Assembly: GCA_950295325.1 (NCBI GenBank)
Contig: OX485803.1
Span: forward strand, 65,549,554 to 65,613,553
Direction: 5' to 3'
DNA length: 64,000 nucleotides
From: Polytrichum commune
Lineage: Eukaryota > Streptophyta > Polytrichopsida > Polytrichales > Polytrichaceae
Made by a program: the position numbers and the translations under genes. Positions within the stretch are counted from its first letter, which is position 1, and every line of letters starts with the position of its first letter. Below, in pieces: positions 27,893 through 52,290 of the stretch. Under the pieces are notes generated by a model. It saw nothing but the letters and a program-made list of their open reading frames with translations, ran no database searches and was not told the origin of the DNA.

Positions 27893-28105
27893 TTAGTTAC
27901 AAATGAACCAGTTGAGTTTGAGAAAAAATTGGTTGAAGTTCAAGATTGCAGGATAATTACTGATCATTCTAGAGGAATTTATAGAATATACCCCAATTTA
28001 ATAAAGGAAAACCGGAGGATGTCAACATGTAACCGATTGGACTTGCAAACACTAGGATCTCAACCGATTATGCCCAAAAATCTCCCCGACCACTGGTCCC
28101 ACCCA
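27893..28105. repeat. Dispersed repeat family D, copy 1
   Basis: Similar to 51480-51790. Shared blocks are TTGAAGTTCAAG, CATTCTAGAGGAATTTATA, TCAACATGTAAC versus TCACAACATGTAAC, TTGGACTTG-AAACACTAGGAT and a CTCCC-CGAC-ACTGGT end. Non-coding. The second copy carries a recent internal duplication that is absent here. Confidence 0.65.
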
Positions 28106-28140
28106 ATGTACATACTCAACTAAATAATCTAATGTGAATT

Positions 28141-29787
28141 TTGGTAATTTATGAATACTATAATTTCCATCGAAGCCGCCTAGGTAGGACGCAAATCTAC
28201 AATTGGGCATCACAACACATGAAAGGAGGTACACCCAAACAATCTATCCTTAGTAACCAAAACTCGGAAGGACAAATAGAAAGCAACACCGCAGGATCTG
28301 GAATCTACAGCCCCAACAACAACATCCAAATATCAGAAAGACTACCAGGGTACCAAAACATCCTTAGAGCAAAGCTCAATGCAATACTCGTTGCTATCAA
28401 AACCATATGTGCCACCCATACAGACAACCTTAACAATATATTCCTAATCAACAACCATATTTGACACCCAACATCACAACATCACCACCCAGACAAACTA
28501 CTCATAGCAACCATAGTACAACATATCTACTGGACCCCATACACAATTCACTTACATAAAGTACGTGCACACTCGGGAATTATCAGCAACGAAATCGCTA
28601 ACACATTAGCCAACGAAGGGACTCTTAAAGATAAACCAAATAAAACACCACACATACATATAGCTCATCCCACACCTTACTGGCTAGCTAGTTGTCCAAC
28701 CACCACACACGATGGGGCCATCCGTAACCTCCACACAACTATAACCAAAGAACATGGAACTCGCGAAGCGGCAATAGCCAAAAACAAATTCCCATACGTT
28801 GACAAATGGCTATCAAATGACCAAATAAACCACAAACTCTCCAATCATTTTTGGAAAAATGAAAAAGCAACATATGCACAAATATCACAAACTCTAAAAT
28901 TCAGATACACCCAATACATGAGTAACCATAGAAAAAACATCTTTTGGCCACACACACACCAAAACCCCAACTGCACATCGTGCTATAAAAACGATAAAGA
29001 CACATGGCCGCACCTCCTCTCAATGTGTGAAAACCCCTACCTCAAGGGCCTAAGAATTTCCAGACACGATAAGGCGGTGCATCTCATCACACAAACACTA
29101 CAAGCTAACAAGTATACCCGCTTCTTTACACTAACCACCGCCGGTAAAATAAATAACAAATCCCCTGACCAAACAATCCCATAATGTTTACTCAAATGTA
29201 CATGCCCACAAGCCCCTTGCCAATGCCATGCCAAACTCAGACCATACATCCTCTGCATAATCGGAGCCCCAAACCATATACAAACACCCATGGCACCATC
29301 CCCCACAACTATAGTCCAACTCATAGAATTCACATACTGCCATGACAAATTCCCAAAACAAACCATCACACAAAAACATACCAAATATGACCCACTAAAT
29401 AACGCTATACAGAATAATGGGTGGAAAACCAACCCCCTTATAACCATCACAACATGTGTAAGAGGAGCAATACATGAACATTCTATCGAGAAACTAACCA
29501 AACTAAAAATTCCTAAAACCAATATTAAAACCCTCATGAAAAGCCTACACCACAATGCCATTAAATACCTCACCTACCTAATCCTAAACAAAAGAAAACT
29601 AGACAACAAACAAACACCGGTCCCCCCACCATAATGAAATTGGATTAATATTACACCTACGAAGAGCCCACCTCCTAACGGAGGCATAAATCTCTTGCTG
29701 CATCACGGGATACCGTGATCAACATAAGACCAACGGGCTCAAATTCACGCCAATATTTAGATACGGGCGTAATTTTTCTTCTCCTTA
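28141..29787 (+). mobile_element. 5'-truncated LINE with RNase H domain and 3' tail
   Basis: One reading frame runs from 28141 to 29634 with two in-frame stops (TGA 28462-28464, TAA 29182-29184) and no frameshift. It encodes an RNase H region (TAGSGIYSP; LRAKLNAIL; HTDNLNNIFLINNHI; KVRAHSGIISNEIANTLANE), then a C-terminal LINE region with CTSC and CTCPQAPCQC cysteine patches and ends LILNKRKLDNK. Compared with a usual LINE RNase H, the Glu motif reads Lys (LRAK), and Asp reads Asn in NEIAN, so the enzyme is probably dead. The 3' tail at 29699-29787 has the ATCACGG-N4-CCGTGAT hairpin and a T/C-rich end. The plus strand is markedly rich in A and C. The reverse transcriptase part is missing. No target-site duplication was found. 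Confidence 0.85.
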
Positions 29788-32700
29788 ATAACCAACACTT
29801 GAACTTATAATTCACATAATTGAGTCCACATTCACGCATGATAGATACACTGCTATAGCCATACAAACCAACCCAAAAAAAAACATGATTACAATCCCCT
29901 AATCATACAAGTCCAAGAATGGAAAATTAACCCCTGCATAGTTATCACCGAGATTGTTCTAGAGGAACAATGCACACACCCAAAATATAAAGCAATTAAA
30001 ATACTTACAAATCTCAACTTTAATAATAATAAAAATCTATGAAAGAGATACATCAAATAGCCATTAAATACCTCACCGAACTTGACTAATCAAATGAAAA
30101 GTATATAACAAATAGGAGCCAATGCACATGTGGCGGTGATTTTCAAGAACCTTCTTACTTGAACCCAAGTTCCTAGCTTATTAGACTTGCATGCAATGCG
30201 CATGCACCACATTGCTCCAACATTGTGCCACATTCCCATTTTACGAGCTCCTTAATTACTCATGGTGCAATCTGCACGTTGATGTTTCCTGATTAGGTAT
30301 TGTGAATTCCTGCAAAAAATTCTGTTTGTTTTAAACGGTCGGCCTTCTTGTGAAGATTACATTGCAATATGTGTTGATGATTTCAGGGGTTAATTAACGG
30401 TCTCGCCATCCCGCCACATCACATAGCATCGAGTTGGTCCGGTGCCATTTGTATGCGTTGCCGGAATGACATGAAATTCTTCATTGGCATCGACAGATGT
30501 TGCCTCCCGAAATCGAGCTTGAAATTCGCCTCCTCGCAAAATTTTCAATGTTTGAGGAGCGAGAGCACAATGCAGAAGAAATCCGTAGTAGTTAGATTTA
30601 TTCTTGAAAGGGTTTTGGGGTTTCGAGAGGGTTTTTGGTCGGTTGCATTCGCCATCATCATCATCATCATCATCATGAATCAGCAATGTAGACATGTTCA
30701 CGCATCCATCAATAGCTCGAAGTCTTCTTGATTTCTGGCCAGATTGAGTCACGCAAGAGCCACGTATCATCGGTATTATTATTTTCCGAGATCCTGGAAA
30801 CGATTGCTTCCGTTCCGTTGTATGGCGCTATCATCTTGTCATTTCTACGATTGCTTCCTCCCTTTGCATCACCATTGTCTTATAAATTGGGACAGTTCGA
30901 GATTCTACATTTGCTGACCTCTCATGTCCTTTTGGAAACTTGGAGCGTCATGTAACATGACATATCTCCCCTTTGGTTTTTTTAGTGGAAATGGCCCAAT
31001 CCAGTGGCCATGGCGTTCCTCTACTTTCAAAAAAACTTAGTCAATACGATGATCTTGCTTAAGGACTGGTGCACTTAGAATAAATATTGTTACGGTCTGT
31101 AAAGGGTATGGAAACAGAAACAGTTGTGCATTGCCGAAAGCTCCAAGAAACCTGCTTTTGAGGGTAAGGTGTCTTTGAGATGAGCTTCTATGATGGCTGA
31201 CATTGCTTGCATTTACCAAACCCTGACCGTGTCATCTTGAGGGTTCTCCTATCGACATGAACCCGGTTAGGTGCTGAATAAGTTTGTACTTCCAGAGCAA
31301 AGTATCCCAAAAAAAATAATCATGGAACAGAGAGATTTACTGGTTATGATAGAATTAAGGATATGAACTCTTTATATCCTTTGGCTGTTCTACTGTTCCA
31401 GCTGTGATGGGATTTCAATCATGAAATTTGAAGAAATGTCCTTGAGAAATTCTGTGAGTCTGCAAATTTGATGAATTTTAGGCCAAGGTTTACTTTCTTA
31501 TTCTGCTACCGCCATACGTATGGTCTGGACCGCATTGCCATTAGACCATTTGTAGATTTTGTGATGGTAGGGGTTTGTGCAAATTGATATAGTTCTGCTA
31601 CACCGCTCTCAGTCCTTGAAGTTTCCTGTTTATTGAAGGTACCGTGTTTTTCTAGTCTTCCACCTTGAAGTCATCAGTCCTTGTGAAGCTTCGCATTTGA
31701 GTAACTTGTGATGCTTTCTTGCACTTCCACCTGCACAACTTGCATGTAGAAGGGGAATCCCAGGGTTTATAATAGGGCTTCATCATCATATTGGCCATAA
31801 TCTGCACCAGTCCTCAAGAAGTCCCTTGTGTACTTGAAAAATGCATCAATCTGGTCACAGTTGCAAGGAATTTTCTGAGCTGCAGTTGCGTAGTATTGAC
31901 TCGTGGTTCTATCTGGACTTAGGGTAAATGTAATGAGGTAGTTAGATTATTAGTTGACAACATTGCACAGTCTAACCTTGTCATGAACGGAAGCCCGAAC
32001 AGTGATTTATTAGGGCTTCAAGAACCTAAATTCTTGGACCAAGTTCGATGTCCATTGTCATTAGCCATGAATTTGCGGGCTTATCTTGATTAGGTTACAT
32101 TTAGCATGACCAAGATCGCACAGCCTTTTTCCCCTACTTGGAAGCCAATGAGAACCAGTTTATTTGATCCATTGCAGAGTCTTGTTTCACAAATTTACTC
32201 TGTTTAGGGACGTTCTGCTTCGCTCAATTGTGGGTGGTTTAGGGCAGACGCATAGTCAGTCTGGTGAAATATGTTAACCCTCCATCATAGCTGTCGCAAG
32301 AATTTGCTTGCCCTGTTTGCTCTGACCTTTGAGAAGTTTCATCGGTAGTCTGATTCATTAGGGCACCACTGGGCTCGAGATTTCGGCGAAGAACAGTTGT
32401 AACCTATTTGGGCTTGTCAGTAATCAGTTTTGGGTCATGGCCCACCGTGTAGATTATGTAGTCATTATTAACAGGGTGCATTCATATTTTGCAGGTTCAC
32501 AGTGTCCGGGTGTTCCTCCACCGTGTTGTCACTTATACTGAACTGTGGAGGCATTTATATGTCAAGAACTGAGCTAATCTCTCATTATTAGTAAGGTAAT
32601 TAGTCATAAACTTTCTGTACTTTGCTTGTAGGTGAAGTTGCACTATGCGATTTCTTCAAGGTTTATAAGAGGATCTTGTCTTTCTACCTAGAGATCTGGC

Positions 32701-44530: not shown

Positions 44531-45052
44531 CATCGGGTGGCCCCACCGACTGCGTGAGGCGCTTGCACGCCGCTCCTCCTCGCTGGCTATGGCCAGGGCA
44601 GGCCAGGCCAGGCCCGCCATGCCCTAAGACCTCGACGTTCTGTTGTGTCGCTTTCCGCTTGCTCGCTTGCTCGCGCCCTGTCCCCGTCTTTCCGCACGCA
44701 GGAACGCGGCCTAATTGGCGCGCCTCCTCCTCCACCGTTCCCTGCCGACCGTTTCCGCGCCTCCTTTGACTCACTTTTGCCTCCACGTAACTCTGCTCTT
44801 TTTCCTCCCTTCCAACCTTCCCTTCCCTTCCCAAGTTCGCTCCTCTCCAAACCTCGGATTCACACACGCTCGCCTCTCGAGACAGGAGGTAGGACTCAGG
44901 AGGCGTACCCTACCATCGCAGAGCAAGAGATCACAGGACACGCACAGGGACACACGTTGTGTTGTGTTGCGAGGGTTTTTGGTGGACAGGAGTGAATTTT
45001 TTTGTAAGAGTTTTTCGCAAGCGTTTTGGAGGCTTTGATCGAACTAAGGAGG
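44531..45052 (+). promoter_or_regulatory. GC-rich upstream and leader region of adenylate kinase
   Basis: A sharp rise in GC content begins near 44535, with GGCCA-type short repeats near 44591-44620. Open frames on both strands here overlap in several registers and are composition effects. The start codon context is AAGGAGGATGGCGG. No TATA box is firmly placed. Confidence 0.35.
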
Positions 45053-48000
45053 ATGGCGGCGGCGAGCCGCCTGTGGAGCCCGGCTGCGAAGCTGAGGACG
45101 ATGTTATCAAGGAGGAGCGGCACGCAGCAGCAGAAGTGGTGGGCGCGCGACATGGGTTACGCGGCGCAGGCCACCGTGGAGGTGGAAGGATGGAGGCGTG
45201 GGAGTCGCGCGGCGGAGGAAGTGCACTCGCAGGAGCAGGATCGAGGTGTGCAGTGGGTGTTTCTCGGCTGTCCGGGTGTGGGAAAGGGCACATACGCTAG
45301 TCGTCTGGCCAAGTTGATGCAGGTGCCTCATATTGCTATGGGCGATCTGGTCCGCCAGGAGCTTTTGCAGAAGACGCCCATGGCCCAGCAGGTACAACCT
45401 CAATAGCATGTCCCTCTCTCTTCTTTTGTCCTTGATCCTCTGCCGAGATTTTGCAACTTGGATTGGGCATGGTGGGATGTAGTCGTCCACTAATCCTTCA
45501 AACATGCACTTCTTTAATCCCTATAATTTTTTTTCTGGTATCTCCACAGGTGGGTAGATCTGTAGCTATTGCAGAAGACGCCCATAGCCCAGTTGGCCTA
45601 TCCTCAATTGTCATACGATATCCCTCTCTTCTCTTGCCCGTGCTCCTCTGCCGGATTTCTGGTGACATCAGATTGGACATGTGGTTATCTAGTGAATCCT
45701 TTAAGCATGTTCTGCACTGCAGGAATGTCCTTCGGGTTTTTCTGGTGTCTCAATATGGCAGTAGGCATAGAGAAGACGCCCATGGTACAGCAGGTCTTAC
45801 ATCAATAGCCAACGGATCCCTCTTTTTTTCCCTGCCCCTGCTCCTCTGCTGAGTGTGCCTTTCAAATTGGACTGTTTCTGGTGCTGGTGACATAAGAGTG
45901 GGCATGTGGTCGTCTAGTGAATTATTGAACTTTTATTGCACTTCTGTAATTCCCACTGCTGTTTTCCTGGCATCTCAACATGGATGTGGTCCCCCAGGAC
46001 CTTTGGTAGAAGGTGCCCATGGTCCAGCAGGTGTAAACTCACCAGACAATGGATCCCTCTCTCTTCTCTTGTCCTTGCTCCTTTGCGGAGTTTTTTGCAA
46101 TTTAGATTGGGTATGGTGGTGATGATATTAGAATGGGGTTTTATTCATGCGGTGATTGGTTAAAACACGTTATGTAATCCTGTAATTCCCTCTGCTTTTT
46201 CATTGTATCTCAACATGGCAGTAGGTATAGAGCATATCTGGTCCGCCATTAGGTGTTGCAGAAGATGCGTATGGCTTAGCATATCTACACTCAATAGGCA
46301 ATAAATCCTTCTCTTTATCTTTTTATCAATTTGGATTGGTTGTGGTGGTGGTGACACTAGAAGTAGGGATGTGGTCATCTAGTGAATCCTTCAAATCTGC
46401 ACTAATGTAACACTCTTTAGGTCGTTTCTAGTGTCTCCACTTGGCAGTAGGCATGTAGAGCAGACCTGGTCCGCCAGTAGTTTTGCAGAAGATGCCCATG
46501 GTGAATGGACCCTCATCTTTTCTTGCCATGTTCTGTTTCTCCAATTTGGATTGGGTGTGGTGGCGGTGACCAGAATGAGGATGTGTTCATCAAGTGAATC
46601 CCTCCAACATCTTGTGCACTTCTGTAATCCCCTGTAGGGTTGTTTCTTACCTCTCAAAATGGTAGTAGGTATGGAGCCTTCTGTCTGGAATACCAATGTG
46701 CAGCTATGCAATCATATTCTTATTCGTTTCTCTCTAACATGCATTTTTGGACGATAACAAGTTATTGAATACTAGATAAATATAACGGGAGAAGGTGCTA
46801 TGTCAGAGTTCAGCCATCTTGTCTTGTGAGGCGGAACTCTGGTTCTGATAGCTTTGAGAACTTCCATCCATGCTTACTTCGCTGAGCTACGTACAAAATA
46901 TTTTTCCAATGTTTTCTGGCAATAGAGAGGTCGCGAGAAGTTGCAAACGGGCATAGCATGTTGGAAGTCTAGCTGGTATGTGGAGACTCTGTGAGTTACA
47001 GGCATGGTCGAGTGTTGAGGGATGCCTGCTTTGCACTGCATGCAGACTGCAAGTGCAGAGTTGATTGGTAATCCGGACTGTTTTTTTTATATCTGATCTG
47101 CAATTTCAATCTTCCCATAAGAAAGGTAATTATCAAGATTCACATTGGACAGCCACTTAGGTTCTGAGGGATTGTGGAGGGCTCATTGTCAGCTACTGTT
47201 TCACTTTAGGTGTGTGTTGTTCTGTCTTTCCTTTTGCATGGGTTTTGAATATCTAATTTTGTACAAGAGCGCACATATATCTTTCTAGGATCCACCAGAA
47301 TTAGGTAATGGCAAGTGTGGATTGTTATTGCTCTATGTACATGGTGAGGCATGGAAGGGTCTGCTTTTAGCTATGTTCAGACTGTTCAGTTCATTTATTG
47401 TGTACAGTCACACCGTTGCACTTCAGGCATGTGATGATGAGTAGGGGATTGATTAGTTTCTTTGGTGTACAGTTGCAGAAAATTATGGGTTCTGGACAGC
47501 TTCTGCCTGATGAAATCATTTTCCGGCTGTTGTCAAAGCGCCTTGAGACTGGAGTCTCGGAAGGAGAAACAGGCTTCATATTGGATGGCTTCCCACGGAC
47601 TGTACACCAAGCAGTGAGTACCATCCTCTCTCACTGGCATGTCATATTCCTGCCTAGTTGAGTCTGTCCTATGGAGGTCACAAACCTCAACATGGGGTTT
47701 GTGGGCATGGTTCCACTGTGTCTAGAAATCTTCTTTGAAGATAGCAATTAAGCCCAAGCATTTTCTGTTTACTTGCATTCAATAGAGGCAGAATGTCTGT
47801 ACATCCTTCTGGAAGAGAAATGGTTTTGTTGTACCCTGACTGGGACAACTGAAGCATTGCTGATTGCTAGTTCCAAGTAGTAGGACCTGGTTGTATGGTC
47901 CAGGAGTAGCTGTGGGTTGCTCTGATGTTTTAATTTCTCCATTGCGTTTGGAAATCTGTTCAGGGGGGAGTGTTCATTTGGTGATTTCTTGTTGACATCT

Positions 48001-48660
48001 TCTTTGTTTTATGTAGGAAATTATGGAAGAAGTTGCAGAAATCGACTTGGTGGTGAATCTGAAACTACGTGAAGATGTTTTGGTTACCAAATGCCTTGGC
48101 AGGCGAATTTGTAGTCAGTGTGGGGGCAACTTCAATGTTGCAAACATAGATTTTGAGGGTTCTGGGAATGTACCTCGCATCTTTATGCCTCCCCTCCTGC
48201 CCCCTCCATCATGTGCCACCAAGATGACAGTTCGTGCTGATGACACAGAGGAAGTAGTCAAAGCCAGGCTTCGAGTTTATTATGAAGAGGTGGGTATTGT
48301 GACATTCACCCTCTATTTCTTTTAGCAAATTTTTACTGTCAACTCTGATCAGCTTATCATAGATTTGAGCAGCTTATATTAATCTAAGCTTGGGTTACAT
48401 TACATGAATGCTTCTGATAGTTTCTGGGAGTAGGTAGGCAAAATTTGATGGTAATTCTAGCCTGACTTCCAGATGCTAACTGGTACTTGTGTTCATGATT
48501 GCAGAGTAAACCGGTTGAAGACTTCTATCGGTGTCGTGGATTGTTGATGGACTTTGATGTCGCAGGAGGTATTCCTGAGACATGGCCCAGGCTATTGTCT
48601 GCATTGAATTTGGAGGAGAAACAATCTACATCTCATGATAGCCGAAAAATGGCAGCATGA
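45053..48660 (+). CDS. Organellar adenylate kinase (plant type)
   Basis: Catalyses ATP + AMP = 2 ADP, probably in plastids or mitochondria. 302 aa in four phase-0 exons: 45053-45391, 47473-47613, 48017-48289, 48505-48660. The first 65 residues are Arg/Ala/Gln-rich and read as a targeting peptide. Core motifs: P-loop GCPGVGKGT (72-80), HIAMGDLVR (93-101; a Thr is usual where Met-96 stands), [10 protein letters not shown], a LID segment with CSQC that may bind zinc with a later Cys, and [16 protein letters not shown]. The order and the PLLPPP stretch match plant AMK2-like enzymes (Arabidopsis At2g37250 type). The first intron is 2081 bp and contains a tandem array derived from the exon 1/intron 1 junction. 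All four exons join in frame, so the gene appears functional. Confidence 0.92.
45341..46676 (+). repeat. Tandem array of the exon 1/intron 1 junction of adenylate kinase
   Basis: A unit of about 200-250 bp starts in the last codons of exon 1 (CTGGTCCGCC...GCAGAAGACGCCCATGG, 45347-45391), crosses the splice donor and runs into intron 1. It recurs five more times downstream. Exon-derived cores lie at 45571-45596, 45771-45794, 46006-46031, 46234-46281 and 46461-46500. Intronic parts recur in step: TCCCTCTCTCTTCTTTTG, GATTGGGCATGGTGG, TCTAGTGAATCC and CTCAACATGGCAGTAGG. Copies 2 and 3 keep a donor-like CAGCAG/GT. Copies 4 and 5 keep CTGGTCCGCC, while copies 1-3 have lost it. Confidence 0.9.
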
Positions 48661-50669: not shown

Positions 50670-52290
50670 AGAGGAGTATGTGTAGTTAAAGCACCTACAC
50701 CTGATCATGACCCCATCGGGAACCTATAAGATGTCAAAATGTCGATTAGGTTGGGACTAAATTTCAATCCAGTCGGCATCAATAGTGTCATGACACATGT
50801 CCCTAGTTTTGACGCTAAAGTGAGGAGGAATGAGCGGTTAACATGCGCAGTTATGGCAGACTTTAGACATGGGTAATATGTTCGGACCAACATTTGCCTT
50901 CAAAATTCACAGTTTTTTCAATTTAAGGAATTAAATTACCATCAAAATTGCAATCCTCTTGATTTCTATCTTCCTACACGGGGTAAATTTGCACTACCTT
51001 ATACTTCTCCATATTTGGCACATAATCTCTGAAGTGATCAATTATGGGCACCTCTATTGTACTAGCTATTCATGATTTTGTCTTGAATTACATTGCAACC
51101 ATGGCAAATATACACAAGTTGGTTGATGTTTATTATTTCATTTGCAATTTAGGGTGTTGTTTTAATGTGCAGTGTGGAAGTGTAGGTAATCCGGAGTTTG
51201 TCAGCAAAACAAGGAATATTTAGCATAGATGGAGGTGAGGTAATATTTAGCATCATGGTAGCAAGGAATGGATTTGGGCGAACCAACCCATACACTCGTT
51301 CCTTGTTGGATGCTTAAACCCTTGCCTCCAAGGAACCAGTGTACGGGTTGGTTTGCCCTAGCCACAAGGAATGGGCAAGGGAACATGGTTGTTGAGGATG
51401 TCAAACCATTTACTGATTGGTCCAGGATCAAGGTAACCAACAGTCGACGGCAGTATGGAGTGGTTGACCAATGAACGGGAAGAACCGGTTTGAGGAATAA
51501 CCAGTTGAAGTTCAAGGCTTCATGAAAATTACCCATCATTCTAGAGGAATCTATACAACATACTTCTAATTAATGAAGAAAACCCGAAGAATCACAACAT
51601 GTAACTGGTTGGACTTGGAAACACTAGGATTTTGACCATGAAAATTACCCATCATTCTAGAGGAATTTATACAACATACTTCTAATTAATGAAGAAAACC
51701 CGAAGAATCACAACATGTAACTGGTTGGACTTGGAAACACTAGGATTTTGACCGACTATGTCTAAAATCTCCCTCGACACTGGTGGTTGACAAAACATTG
51801 GATGACCTTGGTGTTGGACAATGGATAAACTTGCATGAGGTTTGAACCAATGCATGCGTCTCTACAGAGACGTTTGATAAGATTAGAACGATACAAAGAA
51901 AGGGTAGTTTGAGCCCAAGACCTTAAACCCGTGACCCATGAGAAATCCAAGGTTAAGTTGCCTAAGGCCAAAATAATACTCGGATGGTGTAGACCTTCCT
52001 AACGCTTATTTTTTGGTGCACCCTACCACCTGTGATTCACCCAATCATAATGAGGGTATCCAGGTGAACCGGCATATGGGAAGGTTAAGGGCTTGCCCAT
52101 GGGAGAGGGAGGTGTTGGTTGACTTGTCCGTGCTCGTTCAAGGTGTTCACCTCCGAAAGGCAACAATAGTCATCGGGGACCCTTTATTCTTTTAATGCAT
52201 GTTTCAAGATTACATATAGATTTAGACGAGCTTGAAAGTGAAGCAGCACGTCATTCACGTTAGTGGCAACATTGGAGTTGTCTTTCTTTC
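50670..52290. repeat. Composite repeat: families B (copy 2), D (copy 2) and C (copy 2) in a row
   Basis: Three segments that occur separately elsewhere in the window lie here within 1.6 kb and in one orientation: B at 50670-51060, D at 51480-51790 and C at 51907-52283. This suggests a longer element (perhaps an LTR or a non-autonomous transposon) of which other loci hold only parts. No protein domain or terminal repeat is evident. Confidence 0.55.
51521..51752. repeat. Recent 116-bp tandem duplication inside repeat D
   Basis: 51521-51636 and 51637-51752 are identical except for one base (GAATCTATA versus GAATTTATA). The other D copy at 27.9 kb has a single unit, so the duplication happened here and recently. 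Confidence 0.95.

Follow-up and report, generated by a model that had tools for sequence, protein, structure and literature searches.

A decayed tandem array of the exon 1/intron 1 junction within the first intron of an adenylate kinase-like gene of Polytrichum commune

The adenylate kinase gene and its intron 1 array

The window, the whole stretch of 64,000 nucleotides analysed here, lies on contig C1 of the 408-Mb genome of Polytrichum commune and contains a gene that looks like a plant adenylate kinase; both its type and its long, GC-rich first exon are in keeping with a plant gene. The gene model begins with a start codon at position 45053 and comprises four coding exons, which join to an open product of 302 residues with an ADK domain (PF00406) at residues 71–262 (133.3 bits, compared to a curated cut-off of 26.8). 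Solved adenylate kinases aligned without gaps across the exon 1/exon 2 junction in both of the two alignments printed, supporting the donor CAG/GTACAA (45391/45392) and an acceptor directly before 47473. A protein search against the same genome gave no indication of a second, closely similar gene copy: the best matches beyond its own exons had 37% and 38% identity (E about 1e-13), and one weak, half-length match had 43% identity (E 0.35).

Six tandem units of 209–250 bp each tile positions 45344–46677. The first unit, u0, corresponds to the true junction between exon 1 and intron 1 and consists of the 48 nt at the end of exon 1 (45344–45391) followed by 161 nt of intron, and u1 to u5 are decayed copies located wholly within the intron. 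The original prediction was of about five copies; counting the real junction, there are six units, of which five are wholly intronic. The features of the locus are as follows.

45053–45391, forward strand: coding part of exon 1 of the adenylate kinase gene (open frame, splice-consistent join, ADK domain)
45344–45552, forward strand: u0, the genuine junction of exon 1 and intron 1, with the donor at 45391/45392 (unit alignment, profile, gene model)
45553–45764, forward strand: u1, copy within the intron that has lost both the CTGGTCCGCC block and the donor GT (alignment, profile)
45765–45982, forward strand: u2, intronic copy without the CTGGTCCGCC block, with donor GT (CAG/GTCTTA) (alignment, profile)
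45983–46232, forward strand: u3, intronic copy; block present as GTGGTCCCCC, with donor GT (CAG/GTGTAA) (alignment, profile)
46233–46462, forward strand: u4, intronic copy; block present, donor GT lost (alignment, profile)
46463–46677, forward strand: u5, intronic copy; block present, donor region deleted (alignment, profile)
47473–47613, forward strand: exon 2, which follows exon 1 in the predicted product (frame and join, protein alignment)
48017–48289: coding exon 3 of the gene model
48505–48660: coding exon 4 of the gene model

The unit had been predicted to start in exon 1, to span the splice donor and to be multiplied within its own intron, and both the alignment of the six units and the profile derived from them bear this out. 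The off-diagonal lines expected in a self-comparison dotplot were present from an offset of 204 upward. In a self-BLAST of 45000–47600, a gapped line of 1183 columns occurred at this offset with 64.8% identity (195 bits, E 2e-52), accompanied by additional lines at larger offsets; the best self-match among 100 dinucleotide shuffles of 45341–46677 scored 30.1 bits. When the profile made from the six units was searched against the window, it returned six near-full matches (45344–45554, 45553–45772, 45769–45983, 45983–46232, 46236–46457, and 46463–46676), and the best match beyond these units had an E value of 0.014. Within 45000–47600 and at E values up to 100, a profile of the unit end had no match upstream of 45344 and a profile of the unit start had none after 46677, indicating that the edges of the array are sharp. 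The array was absent from the output of Tandem Repeats Finder, as expected given the divergence of the units. Identity between units was 65–75% in the unit alignment, a level of divergence that would make an assembly artefact a very unlikely source of the array.

The CTGGTCCGCC block had been thought to be missing from the first three copies, and from this it was argued that the array did not grow in simple left-to-right order. The alignment shows that the block is absent from u1 and u2 only, whereas u3 has a recognizable GTGGTCCCCC in its place; the argument on growth order was thus built on a misread copy, and the copies are nearly star-like in their relationships. As the gaps in u1 and u2 are unequal in extent, the two losses look like separate deletions in the alignment, which would make them uninformative on the order of growth.

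Origin, divergence, and age of the units

The 16 codons contributed by the exon to the unit sit within the region whose alignment to other adenylate kinases continues across the junction, indicating that the exon is the source of the array. An origin from a transposon or repeat family was rejected: the initial 300 bases had genome matches at the array alone, in two places, and 45600–46700 matched only itself in a search that skips very common words and hence leaves uniqueness unproven. Duplication of a block of three units was likewise rejected, since u0 and u3 are 75% identical, yet u1/u4 and u2/u5 share only 66% and 65%. An open reading frame within the array was also discarded as a candidate, as its longest stop-free run of 138 codons was reached by 34 of 500 shuffles.

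The intron-derived part of the units differed by K2P distances of 0.35–0.50 between units, with a mean of 0.42 between u0 and the copies and of 0.43 between copies. Plant substitution rates are in the range of 5–15e-9 per site per year, and at these rates the array would be roughly 14–43 million years old. The tree of the units is nearly star-like, as internal branches account for 7% of the tree length, and the three internal supports were 80/100 for u4/u5, then 55 and 44. A tree of this shape is best read as the result of an old burst of expansion followed by separate decay of each unit.

The array also holds an internal clock. If the real exon was constrained and the copies were free, the exon-derived part should be more similar between u0 and the copies than among the copies, and the intron-derived part should display no such gap. 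In the exon-derived part, u0 and the copies were identical at 168/208 positions (80.8%), compared to 247/358 (69.0%) for copy against copy; the corresponding values in the intron-derived part were 495/722 (68.6%) and 1092/1616 (67.6%). The column-bootstrap interval of the contrast was 0.046–0.174, with values at or below zero in 1 of 1000 replicates. Under five alignment settings, the exon-derived values ranged from 80.8 to 81.2% for u0 against copies and from 69.0 to 69.7% for copy against copy, and the intron-derived part of u0 against copies ranged from 64.3% to 68.7%. The presence of the contrast in the exon-derived part and its absence from the intron-derived part strongly indicate that coding selection slowed change in the real exon, with the copies drifting at the rate of the intron. 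Selection on the decoy coding fragments was rejected because decay within the copies is similar in the exon- and intron-derived parts. Differences between copies and exon were also spread evenly over the three codon positions (13/68, 13/70, and 14/70), arguing that the fragments are not maintained as coding sequence.

Taken together, these data most probably reflect a tandem burst across the exon 1 donor, after which the copies were tolerated and decayed neutrally. In an intact adenylate kinase gene, a segment of about 210–250 bp that spans the donor of exon 1 would have been tandemly duplicated, presumably by slippage or unequal exchange, and expanded to about six units within a short time. 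The unit already contains the donor and non-coding intron sequence, so the intron should predate the array; a comparison of intron positions across six kinase-related loci of this genome yielded no clear age for it. Since every copy is located downstream of the original donor, use of this first donor in splicing to exon 2 would remove the entire array and leave the protein unchanged; the extra copies could be tolerated and subsequently be subject to neutral drift. Reading of exon 1 past the true donor (GTA CAA CCT CAA TAG) reaches a TAG after four codons, and an mRNA with such an early stop is probably destroyed by surveillance. The copies are thus most likely harmless leftovers that are spliced out from the first donor. 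The original prediction had left competition for U1, creation of cryptic exons, and neutrality all open; as far as the sequence can tell, neutral decay is favored.

Donor sites in the array and their possible use

Some copies had been predicted to retain a donor-like GT, and this holds for two of the five intronic copies: u2 and u3 carry a GT at the homologous donor position, u1 and u4 no longer do, and u5 has a deletion of this region. The predicted U1 pairing of the true donor was −7.1 kcal/mol. For u1 to u4, the values were −1.5, −5.6, −6.7, and +1.3 kcal/mol, respectively, and the value of −5.4 kcal/mol obtained for u5 stems from a nearby GT rather than the homologous site. Accordingly, none of these sites of u1 to u5 surpasses the true donor. 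Among the GT sites listed in intron 1, which had at least 6/9 consensus matches, two were predicted to pair better with U1 than the true donor, one inside the array at 45550 (−13.0 kcal/mol) and one outside at 47210 (−8.0 kcal/mol). The surrounding stretch at 45526–45558 consists of a pyrimidine-rich tract, CAG, and GTGGGT (45549/45550), and this combination of an acceptor-like and a strong donor-like sequence resembles a recursive splice site. Under loose rules, two candidate cryptic exons that keep the frame were observed at 45448–45549 (102 nt, ending at the GT at 45550) and at 45448–45537.

The array might itself be used in splicing, with the GT at 45550 serving as an alternative exon end, as the end of a cassette exon (45448–45549), or as an intermediate splice site; usage of this or other array sites would then adjust how much functional mRNA is made. 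The cassette of 102 nt would contain no stop and preserve the frame, the site has the strongest predicted U1 pairing of the listed intron 1 GT sites and is preceded by the pyrimidine-rich tract, and the joint acceptor/donor rule it satisfies is met by only three sites in the window on both strands. However, 45549/45550 was picked after the fact and is particular to the u0/u1 border instead of being common to the units, and the copies are decaying as fast as the intron. We therefore consider a role of the array in splicing unlikely. Somewhat less likely still is a more elaborate scenario that would make the locus a fossil trial of competing donors: a single transcript once carried six near-identical 5' splice sites in tandem, the first remained in use, and selection purged the decoys faster than their surroundings; the stronger 45549/45550 site would have arisen within the array and would today act as an alternative exon end or as an intermediate splice site.

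Purging alone would imply that the decoy donors were harmful and disappeared faster than their surroundings, leaving the first as the only good one of six homologous sites. The donor GT is lost or deleted in three of the five copies, no copy site beats the true donor in U1 pairing, and the decoy nonamers were identical to the true nonamer at 20/36 positions compared to a background of 68.6%. This slightly faster decay is a hint of selection against decoys, but it was not significant (binomial P 0.069, from few sites) and fits neutrality as well as weak purging. In addition, losses in three of five copies could also be reached by drift at the observed divergence, and u3 retains a fair site at −6.7 kcal/mol, so that purging appears very improbable.

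It is hardly to be expected that the repeated first-intron sequence acts like certain plant first introns and boosts expression of the gene: TTNGATYTG, a motif from work on intron-mediated enhancement, occurred five times in the array with one mismatch (1.67 expected at the rate of the window), but it had no exact occurrence there, 22 occurrences with two mismatches faced 15.0 expected, and repetition alone inflates such counts.

Tandem arrays in the genome and described boundary duplications

The frequency of tandem arrays was estimated from a sample of 18 stretches of 10 kb, hand-picked at round-number positions on contigs C1–C6. A direct-repeat pair of at least 60 bits was found in 44 of 90 sampled 3-kb windows and in 5 of 41 in the 64-kb window. 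Under a more stringent definition (2.8 units or more, each of at least 60 bp), counted regardless of exon overlap, there were ten arrays in the 18 stretches, with 70–96% identity at the offsets printed, and one in the 64-kb window, namely the array in the adenylate kinase intron. Array formation is routine in this genome, and an array crossing a donor is thus no great surprise. Elsewhere in the window, a 116-bp unit occurs twice in tandem at 51521–51753 with a 99% match, which is either recent or an assembly matter. The region 28001–30000 displays a strong strand asymmetry (GC skew −0.39, AT skew +0.33), and a Pfam scan of 28001–28600 in one frame, in which stops were treated as X, returned no hit.

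Duplications of this type have also been described in other organisms, and together with the commonness of tandem arrays in the genome the published cases (PMC3087553, PMC4974935) indicate that calling the structure unusual was an overstatement. In amphioxus, tandem duplications of intron/exon boundaries have been termed 'mirages' (PMC3087553), and a mirage-type structure is echoed in lancelet PGBD5 (PMC3902484). As reported for amphioxus, mirages occur on both the acceptor and the donor side, with BflGb9 duplicating the 3' boundary of exon 2; BflGb6 has units of 150–160 bp, six of them in one haplotype; and many copies retain splice signals while regular splicing is reported to be undisturbed (PMC3087553). 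The adenylate kinase array shares with these cases that each unit spans a real exon–intron boundary, with u0 holding the real donor, and that some copies carry splice signals, the GT being present in two of five. In contrast to BflGb6, which is described as an acceptor-side array of 81–100% identical units with haplotype-variable copy number and concerted evolution (PMC3087553), it lies on the donor side of a plant gene and its 65–75% identical units are nearly star-like and decayed. Homogenization between units as in BflGb6 was not observed, u4/u5 being the sole group (bootstrap 80); homogenization is, however, a trait of the BflGb6 array and not part of the mirage definition.

Two further systems are related. 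An RdRp gene of potato is likewise a plant gene with a duplicated segment across an intron–exon boundary; the reported duplication comprises two copies with ten nucleotide differences on the acceptor side and gave rise to a new intron visible in RNA reads (PMC4974935), unlike the five old donor-side copies found here inside a presumably pre-existing intron. Human genes in segmental duplications have internal tandem repeats at exon–intron boundaries as well, but these are described as recent and variable, with units of 30 bp on average in about four repeats, and as able to form new introns (PMC2812944). None of the literature matches listed (titles and abstract openings, mostly of open papers) concerned a multi-copy donor-side array in a plant, and we make no claim of a first report. 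Based on these comparisons we would assign the adenylate kinase array to the described mirage kind, as an old and decayed example.

On present evidence, the array is a tidy evolutionary relic and involves no new mechanism. As a clear and old boundary array in which one unit is under coding selection and five are free, it provides its own control for neutral decay, and it may serve as a natural case of how splicing keeps to the right donor with near-identical ones just downstream.
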